Assembly: GCF_026616195.1 (NCBI RefSeq)
Contig: NZ_JANHDH010000001.1
Span: forward strand, 806,001-870,000
Length of the DNA stretch: 64,000 nucleotides
Source: Haloarchaeobius amylolyticus
GTDB lineage: Archaea > Halobacteriota > Halobacteria > Halobacteriales > Natrialbaceae
Reading direction: 5' to 3'
Part shown: piece by piece, positions 52,330 through 56,289 of the stretch
How positions within the stretch are numbered: the first letter of the stretch is position 1
Layout of the letters: every line of letters starts with the position of its first letter
Made by a program: the position numbers and the translations under genes
Notes under the pieces: model-generated
Database searches by the model: none
Told to the model about the DNA's origin: nothing
Seen by the model: only the letters and a program-made list of their open reading frames with translations

Positions 52330-52338
52330 CCACCGGGC

Positions 52339-52989
52339 TCAGAGCGTCATCCAGTTCGTCGTCCGTTCGCCCGGTGGGACGTGCCAGCGCTGCTGTGCCC
52401 GGTTCCCCGTCTCTCTGAGTTCGATCCAGCCGTCGAAGAGGTTGACCACGTCGTCCGACACCTCGTCCGTCCCGAGGTGGACGTAACCCATGCCGCGACA
52501 CCCCCGGACGACGGTTCCCAGCCCGCGCAGGAAGTGTTCTCGACTCTCGGCGTCGCTCCCGGCGAGCAACGACTCCGCACCCGGTGCGAGGAGCCGCAAC
52601 TGGCCGGGCTCCAGCCCGTCCTCGCGACTGTCGTACCGGACGACCGATTCGAGGACCGCCCCCCGGATACCGGACAGGCTGCGGTACTCGTCACCCCGAT
52701 GGACCCGGACGTCCGGGTCGGTCGGCGACACACCCTCCGGGAGGTACGGGACGGGGTCCCGCTCGGACCCCGGCGTGACGACCACCCGTTTCCGGTCCGC
52801 GTCCGCCGCCCCACCGAGCAGTCGGAACGCTCGTGCGACGGTCGCTGCGCTCACGGCACCGGTGACCAGCATCGCACACCCGTGCTTCTTGTAGTCGGCG
52901 AGGATCGACGAGAAATCCGTCTCGACGCTACTGTCCCGGAACTGTGCACCCGACAGTTCTCGCTCGAAGACGATTCGGTCGGCGTCCAT
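52339..52989 (-). CDS. haloarchaeal protein of the DUF7504-like type, function unknown
   Basis: 216 residues from ATG 52989. The pattern CAMLVTGAVSAATVARAFRLLGG followed by DRKRVVVTPGSERDP resembles degenerate RecA/KaiC-like proteins that haloarchaea carry in many copies (DUF7504-type), in which the P-loop is degraded. The C-terminal part has LRGLGTVVRGCRGMGYVHLGTD. It lies 41 bp after a winged-helix regulator on the same strand and is convergent with ligA. Assignment by resemblance only. Confidence 0.55.
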   Translation of the reverse strand: MDADRIVFERELSGAQFRDSSVETDFSSILADYKKHGCAMLVTGAVSAATVARAFRLLGGAADADRKRVVVTPGSERDPVPYLPEGVSPTDPDVRVHRGDEYRSLSGIRGAVLESVVRYDSREDGLEPGQLRLLAPGAESLLAGSDAESREHFLRGLGTVVRGCRGMGYVHLGTDEVSDDVVNLFDGWIELRETGNRAQQRWHVPPGERTTNWMTL

Positions 52990-53030
52990 TCGGAGGTTCC
53001 TACCAGCCGCACTATCAAAACGCTTCTTGC

Positions 53031-53369
53031 TCACTCGACGAACTCCTCGACCGACGCCGCGTAATCCTCTCGTTCGGCGTATACCCGGCTCAGCGTCGCG
53101 TTCAGTTCTGCCAGCTGTGCCGTCTGGTCGGTGTCGGCGAGCGAATACGACGGGTACCCCTCCCCGTCGTGTTTCTCCAGCAGCCCCAGGTCGATGAGTT
53201 CCTCCCGGTGGTCGTGGAAGGTACTCGGCGAGAGGTTCGCCTCGGAGGCGATCTCGCTCGCTCCGAGGCGCTCGTCCGGGCGCTCGACGACGACTCCCAG
53301 GATCGCGACCCTGGCAGGATAGGCGAGCGCCCGCGTCAACGGTGGTTCGAACGACCGTGGGGTGCCCAT
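53031..53369 (-). CDS. winged-helix transcriptional regulator (ArsR-like)
   Basis: 112 residues from ATG 53369. LTRALAYPARVAILGVVVERP, then LGASEIASEANLSPSTFHDHREELIDLGLLEKH is a clear winged-helix DNA-binding domain (about residues 10-65). It is followed by a beta hairpin (GYPSYSLADT) and a C-terminal helix. An AAATATACTTG box lies about 30 bp before the start. It may regulate the DUF7504-like gene downstream or the divergent 172-aa gene. Confidence 0.78.
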   Translation of the reverse strand: MGTPRSFEPPLTRALAYPARVAILGVVVERPDERLGASEIASEANLSPSTFHDHREELIDLGLLEKHDGEGYPSYSLADTDQTAQLAELNATLSRVYAEREDYAASVEEFVE

Positions 53370-53541
53370 CGGTGGACACGTCGAACTATGAGGACAAGTA
53401 TATTTTGAAGACGACTCTTTGGCCAAGCGAGACGAGAGTATCGAACAGGTGTTGAATATATCGGCCTATTAACTACAATACTTTGAAAATATTGGTTCTC
53501 AAGCCAACATCTTTTACCATGTGGGGTGTGCTTTGTGCCGT
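53370..53541. promoter_or_regulatory. AT-rich divergent promoter region
   Basis: These 172 bp are strikingly AT-rich for this genome. Leftward, AAATATACTTG near 53395-53405 is a TATA for the winged-helix gene. Rightward, CTTTTACC near 53510-53518 is about 27 bp before ATG 53542. Between them are short inverted repeats: CAATA...TATTG (about 53479-53497) and TTGG-TTCTCAAG-CCAA (about 53495-53510). A regulator-binding role is plausible. Confidence 0.5.
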
Positions 53542-54060
53542 ATGAGCTTCGGCATCCCTCCCGGTGGTGTTCGGGAGGACCAGACGGAATGGGTACTCGA
53601 GCGTGCGACAGAACTGGACGTGCCGCCAGCAGTCGTGTGGGATTACGTCGAGCGGAACACCGAGGGCGACGTCGTGGTCGCAGACGAAGACCGGGCCCGC
53701 CTCACCCGGTTCCTCGACTCCCACCTCGCCCGACCGATGGTCTCCGACCACACCCGCGTGCGCCTCTACGACGGCCCGGAAGGCCGCTACGACTACATCA
53801 AGGGCGTCCACTACGCCCAGGACGTCGAAGGCGACGTCCGCCGGATGGTCCACGCCGTCGCCGCCGACCAGCAGATGACGGTCGAGGTCGACGGCGACTG
53901 CGGTATCGCCGTCCGCTTCCACGAACCGGTCGCCTCCGCCGACGCCTACGTCGCCGCCGAGATACTGCGCCGTGCCTTCGACGAACCGCTCGAAGCCGTC
54001 GACGACATCATCGAAATCGTCGACTACGACACGCAGCGGTCGTGGAACGAACTGGACTGA
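53542..54060 (+). CDS. 172-aa hypothetical protein
   Basis: From ATG 53542, 172 residues, soluble and acidic. An N-terminal helical half (DQTEWVLERATELDVPPAVVWDYVERN, LTRFLDSHLARPMVSD) is followed by an alpha/beta half (RVRLYDGPEGRYDYIKGVHYAQD, MTVEVDGDCGIAVRFHEPV, AEILRRAFDEPLEAVDDIIEIVDYD). No family was recognised. Its stop is 27 bp from the stop of the convergent CHAT-domain gene. Unlike that gene it has normal GC content. Confidence 0.65.
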   Translation: MSFGIPPGGVREDQTEWVLERATELDVPPAVVWDYVERNTEGDVVVADEDRARLTRFLDSHLARPMVSDHTRVRLYDGPEGRYDYIKGVHYAQDVEGDVRRMVHAVAADQQMTVEVDGDCGIAVRFHEPVASADAYVAAEILRRAFDEPLEAVDDIIEIVDYDTQRSWNELD

Positions 54061-54087
54061 CACCTCCTGGTTCACCGAAGAGTCACC

Positions 54088-56205
54088 CTACTCCTTGAGC
54101 AGGCGCTCGACGTCTGATTCTGACTCTGGCCAGTGGAGCTCACCGGCCACCCAGAGCGGGGGTCCCGTCTCCGAGTCGCCGAACTCCATGACGGCCTTCG
54201 GTAGGCGAACACGGTCGATTGTATATGTAGAGGTCTCTCCCGGATCGAATATCGTGTCCATCCACTCTGTCTCTGTCTCGTCTTCCGCGTAGACACAGTT
54301 CATCGTCACCGTTCCGACCTTGTGTGGTTCCCAGAGGTACGTCTTCACCGAAAGTACCGCCGAATCTTCGTCTCGTAAATTGACGGTCACCACAGTTGGT
54401 GTCACATCTCCACGGATAGAGAACCTTGAAAGACCGTCACCGACCACGAGATACTGAGATCTCGAGTCGAGATGCATCGTCGCCTGCTCGACGGCTGCAC
54501 TCATGGAGAACCCCTCACTGAGCAACCGGGAGATGTTCCGGCCGATGATGTTCGCATCTCGGTTGGCGACACGCGAGTGCGTCGTGACACCGGCGACAGC
54601 GCCTTGTTCGACCAGAGATCTCGCCTGGTGGTACGTCTCACAGGCGTTCAGGACGAACAGGTCCGGTCCGACACGGGCGAGGTCACCGACGTCCAGTACT
54701 CCATCTCGACAGTGGAGTCCTGCCCGATTCGCATGTCCGATGAAATGGAGTAAGTCGTATTGGTCGTCAGCCAGTACCGACCTCAGTTTCGCCCGGTCCG
54801 GGTCGAAGAGACGAACGATTTCCCGGTTGATGCCTCTGTCTTTGTCGTAGAGATCGTCGAGTGCATCGCGCGCTGGCAGCATCGATTCGTCGGTACACAC
54901 CATCGCCACCTTGATCGAATCTTTCTCGTTATCGATATCTAGACCGTGTTCGAGACTCGCTTGCGTCGCTTTACTCGCATTCGTCGGAATGCCCGGGCCG
55001 AACCAGGCCTGCGTCACTGCATCATCCGGAGCTGACAGTTCGACGTATGACTGGTCCTGGATATCGTTTACAGTTCCACTGCTGAATGGGGATTCGAAAT
55101 CCCGCGTGAAGGCAGATATCGTCGATGAGACAGGCTTGGTGGGGCGCCCTCTAGCAGGGCGAACAGCTCCGAGCCGGTGTAGCACGTGAGGGAGAACGGT
55201 CACAGACTCTGGTCGTGGGGGTAGGTGAGCGACCATCGGAATCCTCGGCATGTCGGCTTCTATATCCGTGAATTCTACTTGGAGATACGCTTGTAACCGC
55301 TCGGCAGGCGTGGCGTCATAGGCCCAATCCAGGTCGAAGGGCAGTTCCGAAATCGTCGCTTCGTCGAGTATGGGGTCGTGCTGGTAAACACCGATGGACC
55401 GGACGACACAATCGAGGAAGAACATCTGTCGCTGCAACCTGACGAGGTCGTCTTCGAGTGATCGTTCGACCCCGATGTCGACGTGCTCATCACCGGCAAC
55501 TATGGCTGGTTCCGGTCCAGATCGAAGCCTCCCCGAGAGGTAGTACGTTAGTGGCGCCGCGGTGAACAATGCCCCGTATCGCGGGGGAACGATGACGTCG
55601 ATATCGGTCTCTCTTGTTTCTATTTCGTCCGGAATCGAGAGTGTTGGTCCGAGCTCGAGCTTCGGTGGGTAATCACGGAGTCCGGCCCAGGATCGGTCCG
55701 GTGAGGTTGTAGAGAACGACCCCCCGAGTGCGCTTATAGCCGTGGCCATGTCCTCGGGTCGGTCCGGTGTCTGAATCGTCGCCATCGGCTCGGAGTGGTT
55801 CGACCGGAACCCGATTACGACCTGTCGACGGTCCTGAAATTCGACCCGTGTATAACCGACTCCACCTCGGATATCTGGTTGACCGGTCACCATCAAGTAC
55901 ATCTTCACAGGGCTCGGGAAATTGATCACATAGGTACCGAAAGGTAATGTGAACTGTTCCTTCCCGAACCGCTGTCGCAGTTGTTCCATCTCCTCGTTGA
56001 ACACATGCAGAACAAACTGGCTAGAGAACTCGACGTGGTCCGTCTCCAGTTCGATGGTCTCGTCGACGAGGTCCCAGAACGGGACGTCCGTCGGGCCTGG
56101 TGAGAACTGGTTCCCGGACGTCTCGAACTGCACACTGACCTGTGCCAGCGGGTCCAGCACCTCGATCCCACACGGGTCGGTCGTCTGTCGGTACTCCAGG
56201 GCCAT
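54088..56205 (-). CDS. CHAT-domain (caspase-like) putative cysteine protease
   Basis: 705 residues. The C-terminal third is a CHAT domain: DLLHFIGHANRAGLHCRDG gives the catalytic His (H491, in GHA) and DLFVLNACETYHQARSL the catalytic Cys (C522 in NACET); GAVAGVTTHSRVANRDA and FSMSAAVEQA follow as usual. The first 430 residues are beta-rich and unassigned, and a beta-rich tail of about 110 residues follows the protease. The gene has clearly lower GC than its surroundings, suggesting transfer. CHAT proteases act in regulated proteolysis and some prokaryotic immune systems; substrate and partner here are unknown. Confidence 0.82.
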   Translation of the reverse strand: MALEYRQTTDPCGIEVLDPLAQVSVQFETSGNQFSPGPTDVPFWDLVDETIELETDHVEFSSQFVLHVFNEEMEQLRQRFGKEQFTLPFGTYVINFPSPVKMYLMVTGQPDIRGGVGYTRVEFQDRRQVVIGFRSNHSEPMATIQTPDRPEDMATAISALGGSFSTTSPDRSWAGLRDYPPKLELGPTLSIPDEIETRETDIDVIVPPRYGALFTAAPLTYYLSGRLRSGPEPAIVAGDEHVDIGVERSLEDDLVRLQRQMFFLDCVVRSIGVYQHDPILDEATISELPFDLDWAYDATPAERLQAYLQVEFTDIEADMPRIPMVAHLPPRPESVTVLPHVLHRLGAVRPARGRPTKPVSSTISAFTRDFESPFSSGTVNDIQDQSYVELSAPDDAVTQAWFGPGIPTNASKATQASLEHGLDIDNEKDSIKVAMVCTDESMLPARDALDDLYDKDRGINREIVRLFDPDRAKLRSVLADDQYDLLHFIGHANRAGLHCRDGVLDVGDLARVGPDLFVLNACETYHQARSLVEQGAVAGVTTHSRVANRDANIIGRNISRLLSEGFSMSAAVEQATMHLDSRSQYLVVGDGLSRFSIRGDVTPTVVTVNLRDEDSAVLSVKTYLWEPHKVGTVTMNCVYAEDETETEWMDTIFDPGETSTYTIDRVRLPKAVMEFGDSETGPPLWVAGELHWPESESDVERLLKE

Positions 56206-56289
56206 CTACTACCACCGCGTTCGCCCCGGGAGTACGTAGTCGTTTCCGCCGACGGGAGGCTTTTCCGCGGTGGCGGCCAAGCGCCCCAC

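Follow-up and report, generated by a model that had tools for sequence, protein, structure and literature searches.

A predicted CHAT-type protease of Haloarchaeobius amylolyticus and its paralogous haloarchaeal relatives

Described systems and the protease of the window

Archaea are said to lack caspase homologues, and extracts of haloarchaea display very high caspase-like activity; in Haloferax volcanii, strong activity of this kind has been measured with no caspase homologue known (PMC3615174). The described proteins with which the protease reported here is best compared are SAVED-CHAT of a type III CRISPR system (PDB 8tl0), Csx29 (the TPR-CHAT protein of Craspase), separase and the gingipains (peptidase C25). 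A recurring neighbour of its family resembles in architecture the HalOD1-iKaiC proteins, which are part of haloarchaeal signal transduction (PMC5847659) and for which no connection with a protease was found in the searchable literature. The fold and the catalytic dyad are already known. No description of the family, of its architecture or of its pairing with DUF7504 came up in the literature: a search conducted mostly without subscription journals returned no paper that joins CHAT domains with haloarchaea or that names DUF7504.

The window analysed is a stretch of 64,000 nucleotides of the Haloarchaeobius amylolyticus genome. On its minus strand, positions 54088–56205 form a reading frame that is open from an ATG and encodes 705 amino acids, as an earlier note on this DNA had stated. 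The sole Pfam match of the protein is CHAT (PF12770), at residues 470–579 (E 7e-5); the score, 22.8 bits by hmmscan and 24.5 bits in a six-frame search, lies on either side of the curated cut-off of 24. No match was obtained in NCBIfam or in PADLOC. The two catalytic residues proposed in the earlier note are present, His491 (codon 54733–54735, minus strand) in the motif HFIGHA and Cys522 (codon 54640–54642, minus strand) in LNACET.

An AlphaFold model computed from 54 family sequences (pLDDT 89.1, pTM 0.88) divides the protein, read along the minus strand, into an N-terminal beta domain (residues 1–146; 55768–56205), an alpha/beta domain (residues 147–424; 54934–55767), a catalytic caspase/CHAT domain also delimited by Pfam and fold matches (residues ~425–600; 54406–54933) and a C-terminal beta-sandwich-like tail (residues 601–705; 54091–54405). 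By its His-Cys dyad in a predicted caspase-hemoglobinase fold, the protein would belong to the CHAT class, and the earlier assignment, to a protease of the CHAT/caspase fold whose dyad is complete, is supported. The beta tail previously described is recovered at residues 604–691; the approximately 430 residues ahead of the catalytic site, previously called unknown and beta-rich, are beta-rich at residues 1–146 but mixed alpha/beta at ~147–424. The latter domain contains the family motif SALKTTSPERSxPTLRGHPPxxE (residues 158–184) and the invariant arginines of the family. A structure prediction of the N-terminal part, which the earlier note had proposed, gave these two domains (pLDDT 90.8 when folded alone) and no significant Foldseek match (best E 6e-3). 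Two candidate folds were rejected as too weak to name: a clostridial cell-wall protein for residues 139–412 (the best fold row, Z 8.4), and a galactose-mutarotase-like or YidC beta sandwich for residues 1–137 (Z ~7, non-specific).

The catalytic part is closely matched by known folds, with Z scores of 19 for gingipain R, 18.3 for SAVED-CHAT (8tl0; rmsd 2.4 over 172 residues), ~18 for separase and ~14 for Csx29. SAVED-CHAT, which shares the CHAT fold and the His-Cys dyad, is the closest structure by Foldseek and the sole relevant match of a profile search of the PDB, a weak one (E 0.15). It differs from the window protein in that the latter has a beta plus alpha/beta N-terminus, a family in which DUF7504 is the recurring neighbour, and no recognised CRISPR gene at its locus. 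No SAVED domain was matched by Pfam in the window protein, and the 8tl0 alignment spans the CHAT domain only, a fold list being a weak test of this point. The alignments with separase, gingipain and Csx29 start near residue 321, ahead of the catalytic domain. Csx29 shares the protease fold from there into the catalytic domain, whereas the window N-terminus lacks TPR helices in the model and any TPR match in Pfam; no cas gene, Cas7-11 included, was seen among the neighbours in six genomes of the genus or among the recurring neighbours of the relatives. Separase likewise aligns over residues ahead of the catalytic domain, but the window protein is archaeal and has no long helical arm. Gingipain gives the longest structural overlap (residues 321–634, reaching into part of the beta tail) at ~10% identity; unlike a secreted C25 peptidase, the window protein appears to be intracellular, its N-terminus (MALEYRQTTDPCGIEV) reading as free of a hydrophobic leader. 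Residues 147–424 are possibly a non-catalytic caspase-like half such as those of separase, gingipain and Csx29, which is put forward as a suggestion because the N-terminal fold matches are too weak.

Conservation and distribution of the family

The window protease is not an isolated new effector but belongs to a paralogous haloarchaeal family that is as yet uncharacterised. Both dyad residues are present in 124 of 129 aligned family proteins, and in the other five both are lost, never just one. Cys499 (codon 54709–54711, minus strand), in a CxDG motif, is invariant in all 129, dyad-less proteins included, as are R177, R269 and G589; R171, P181 and G535 are nearly so. The five dyad-less proteins, which fall into about four lineages, keep the rest of these residues, including C499, R177 and R269. 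Such natural pseudo-proteases, with their paired loss of the dyad, represent natural controls for catalytic function. Four of the loci with dyad-less relatives are L039:4824-9637, L035:4982-6931, L185:4916-7093 and L181:6040-8100, and two of these proteins are encoded in tandem.

Family members were detected in 54 of 61 related genomes, with 1–11 copies per genome; of the good-quality genomes, 46 of 50 had a match. The genome of the window carries three copies. Among 148 genomes sampled from the phylum, the only matches outside the order were in four genomes of one family, probably Methanocella to judge from the DnaG/rRNA surroundings of the genes. Each of these four has a single copy (L181, L182, L183 and L184), whose conserved position is close to DnaG and to a gene resembling dihydroorotase; one of the four proteins lacks the dyad. 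A contig collection searched with a single protein gave no close relatives, whereas an alignment query recovered at least 526 candidate stretches encoding relatives, the best 80 of which are all haloarchaeal. One haloarchaeal genome with nine matches overall carries three family genes head to tail (L186:4318-11309). Relatives also occur on plasmids; phage records contained none, a result that says nothing either way on counter-defence.

The family is almost universal in haloarchaea and is missed by Pfam and NCBIfam: PF12770 matches 5 of 54 members and PF01364 one of 54, and PADLOC matched none. A PF12770 control search brought up nothing from H. volcanii, an uninformative outcome because this model also misses most of the family.

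Selection on the window protein was assessed against its sole orthologue among the six genomes of the genus, that of G002. The two proteins are 69–70% identical, whereas identity at the ligase, MBL and top6A genes nearby is 88–97%. The dN/dS of ~0.16 between the two, obtained at a high and rough dS of 1.29, indicates that the protein is under constraint; in the same genome pair, dN/dS is 0.22 for the DUF7504 gene of the locus and 0.06–0.19 for neighbouring core genes.

Recurring loci, empty sites and base composition

The neighbourhood survey of homologues suggested in the earlier note revealed a recurring neighbour and candidate partner, DUF7504 (PF24336), together with two recurring loci, glp and TbsP. 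Among 124 family genes, a set that includes the best-scoring 80 named loci and is not an unbiased sample, 37 lie behind glpC (the last gene of glpABC) on the same strand, 2 more beside AglB, 8 beside TbsP and 38 beside DUF7504, while 39 have none of these contexts. A DUF7504 gene stands directly upstream of the protease, on the same strand and within 500 bp, for at least 22 of the 142 copies listed from 16 genomes, compared with ~0.1 expected by a simple rate. Little sequence separates the two genes, and in two pairs they overlap by 4 bp; gene coordinates place DUF7504 upstream of the protease at L122, L123, L128, L141 and L161, and the named genomes that carry the pair include those of ten Haloferax species. 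On four plasmids, DUF7504 is directly upstream of the protease, as a HalOD1-DUF7504 fusion in three and alone in one, and in one of these pairs the reading frames overlap by 4 bp; one plasmid copy has a DUF5821 (TbsP-like) gene as its neighbour. Many of the relatives are not accompanied by DUF7504. The gap from glpC to the protease is typically at least 250 bp and that from TbsP ~400 bp.

From the architecture, DUF7504 would correspond to the inactivated KaiC domain (iKaiC) described previously (PMC5847659), an identity that a profile search of the PDB, in which DUF7504 matched no solved structure, did not confirm. No match was obtained between the profiles of DUF7504 and TbsP, so these contexts are not established as variants of one partner. 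DUF7504 is itself a large paralogous family, with 12 copies in the genome of the window (e.g., G000:C1:266234-266755) and members in 59 of 61 related genomes.

At the window locus, a DUF7504 protein of 216 amino acids, degenerate KaiC-like and a likely partner of the protease, is encoded at 52339–52989 on the minus strand (Pfam E 2.5e-23), and an ArsR/IclR-like winged-helix regulator from the same insertion at 53031–53426, also on the minus strand. The earlier note had seen neither a CRISPR partner nor an obvious gasdermin; a candidate partner is nevertheless visible, since DUF7504 recurs directly upstream of the relatives and at this locus is present only with the CHAT gene. Four of the six genus genomes (G001, G003, G004 and G005) have an empty CHAT site with the flanking genes adjacent, and in G004 ~50 bp stand in place of the 2.2-kb stretch that carries the gene (54070–56288). 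The same four congeners have neither gene of the stretch 52330–53520, which holds DUF7504 and the regulator, at its place, and they retain the gene order ligase, 179-aa protein, MBL, top6A without either insertion. Both insertions, one gene apart, are carried by the window's genome (G000) and G002, the only two genus genomes with the window CHAT gene and with an orthologue of its DUF7504 gene. These genomes are sisters on the glp-linked subtree; therefore, the co-occurrence of CHAT and DUF7504 counts as one event and is not replicated. On sequence grounds, the presence of both insertions would most simply reflect a single event, either a gain on one branch or a loss on the other. With 12 DUF7504 copies in the window's genome, the chance of one lying within 2 kb is ~1%. 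Against a single operon, the window DUF7504 gene lies downstream of the CHAT gene and behind the opposite-strand gene for the 179-aa protein.

This protein (53521–54060, plus strand) has no Pfam, NCBIfam or PADLOC match and occurs in the genus only (6 of 12 genomes tested). It is fast-evolving, with ~55% identity to the four congeners compared with 82% for the neighbouring MBL, and in two genomes its gene has insertions on both sides. As to a gasdermin, no obvious example of which had been seen, this adjacent protein is without a Pfam match and is found also where the protease is absent. The remaining neighbours, named by reading of their sequences, are ligase, glutamate-cysteine-ligase-like and topoisomerase VI genes; no defence-like gene is near the window copy, and PADLOC found only generic winged-helix similarity among its neighbours.

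Each of the six genus genomes carries both the glp-linked and the TbsP-linked copy. In the family tree, the window gene and its orthologue form a long-branched sister to the glp-linked clade and lie outside the DUF7504-linked clade. The drop in GC content reported in the earlier note is real (0.576, with GC3 0.664, compared with 0.69–0.71 and 0.92 in the ligase and MBL genes), but its use as evidence of transfer does not hold: within this genome, the paralogue whose position behind glpC is fixed has an even lower value (0.515), and low GC was rejected as proof of transfer. All glp-linked copies measured in the genus lie 6–13 points below their flanks, and low GC is therefore partly a trait of the glp-linked clade. 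The window gene is considered accessory because its sites are empty, not from its GC content, and in this respect the earlier reading stands. Universal genes at a fixed locus, the picture against which that reading had been set, are largely what is found for the family, though not for the window copy.

Possible roles of the protease

The observations are best accounted for by a signal-gated intracellular caspase-fold protease (clan CD) with a KaiC-like partner, a reading that we regard as evenly poised between right and wrong. The catalytic domain (residues ~425–600) would cut proteins via His491 and Cys522, and the beta and alpha/beta N-terminal domains would probably keep the protease latent and present its substrate, a task that in separase and Csx29 falls to the non-catalytic half. 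DUF7504, elsewhere often fused to HalOD1, would probably relay a signal, whether as an activator, an inhibitor or a cleaved substrate. The window copy would be a third, rapidly evolving paralogue that one Haloarchaeobius branch either acquired or retained along with its DUF7504 and the winged-helix regulator, presumably in a single event.

The recurring loci also fit a housekeeping protease, whose glp-linked and TbsP-linked core would cleave an enzyme or regulator of glycerol or glucose metabolism, with the window copy as a diverged duplicate in a related job. The 37 same-strand copies behind glpC, the 8 beside TbsP, the occurrence of both types throughout the genus and the sister position of the window gene all agree with this. 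However, the wide gaps behind glpC and TbsP make co-transcription doubtful, the window copy is at neither locus, and 1–11 copies with tandem arrays would be unusual for a single metabolic role; we consider the proposal doubtful. The family members that have lost the dyad yet keep C499, R177 and R269 invite the different view that the proteins are scaffolds or sensors retaining only the fold, but the window copy and 124 of 129 proteins keep both catalytic residues, which is unexpected without selection on catalysis, and this view is improbable.

An anti-virus effector, in which the caspase-like protease, accessory and low in GC, would kill infected cells or arrest them by abortive infection, as do the CHAT proteases linked to type III CRISPR systems, would explain the accessory single-gene insertion, the fast evolution relative to the neighbours, the plasmid-borne relatives and the closest Foldseek match. 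It is nevertheless unlikely: PADLOC recognised neither the family nor, beyond the generic winged-helix similarity, the protein and its neighbours, the window neighbours are housekeeping genes, and most relatives reside at recurring core loci.

A signal-gated protease of this family may bear on the caspase-like activity of haloarchaea, given that the DUF7504-protease pair occurs in ten Haloferax species. That the family is the missing gene basis of the activity in H. volcanii, and forms with its partners a KaiC-like/HalOD1-gated switch for stress or cell death older than the haloarchaea, is improbable on present evidence. For that activity, the proteasome is an evident alternative source. A caspase-fold family with an intact dyad and a paired signalling protein would nonetheless make the question of caspase activity testable by gene deletion in a tractable genus.
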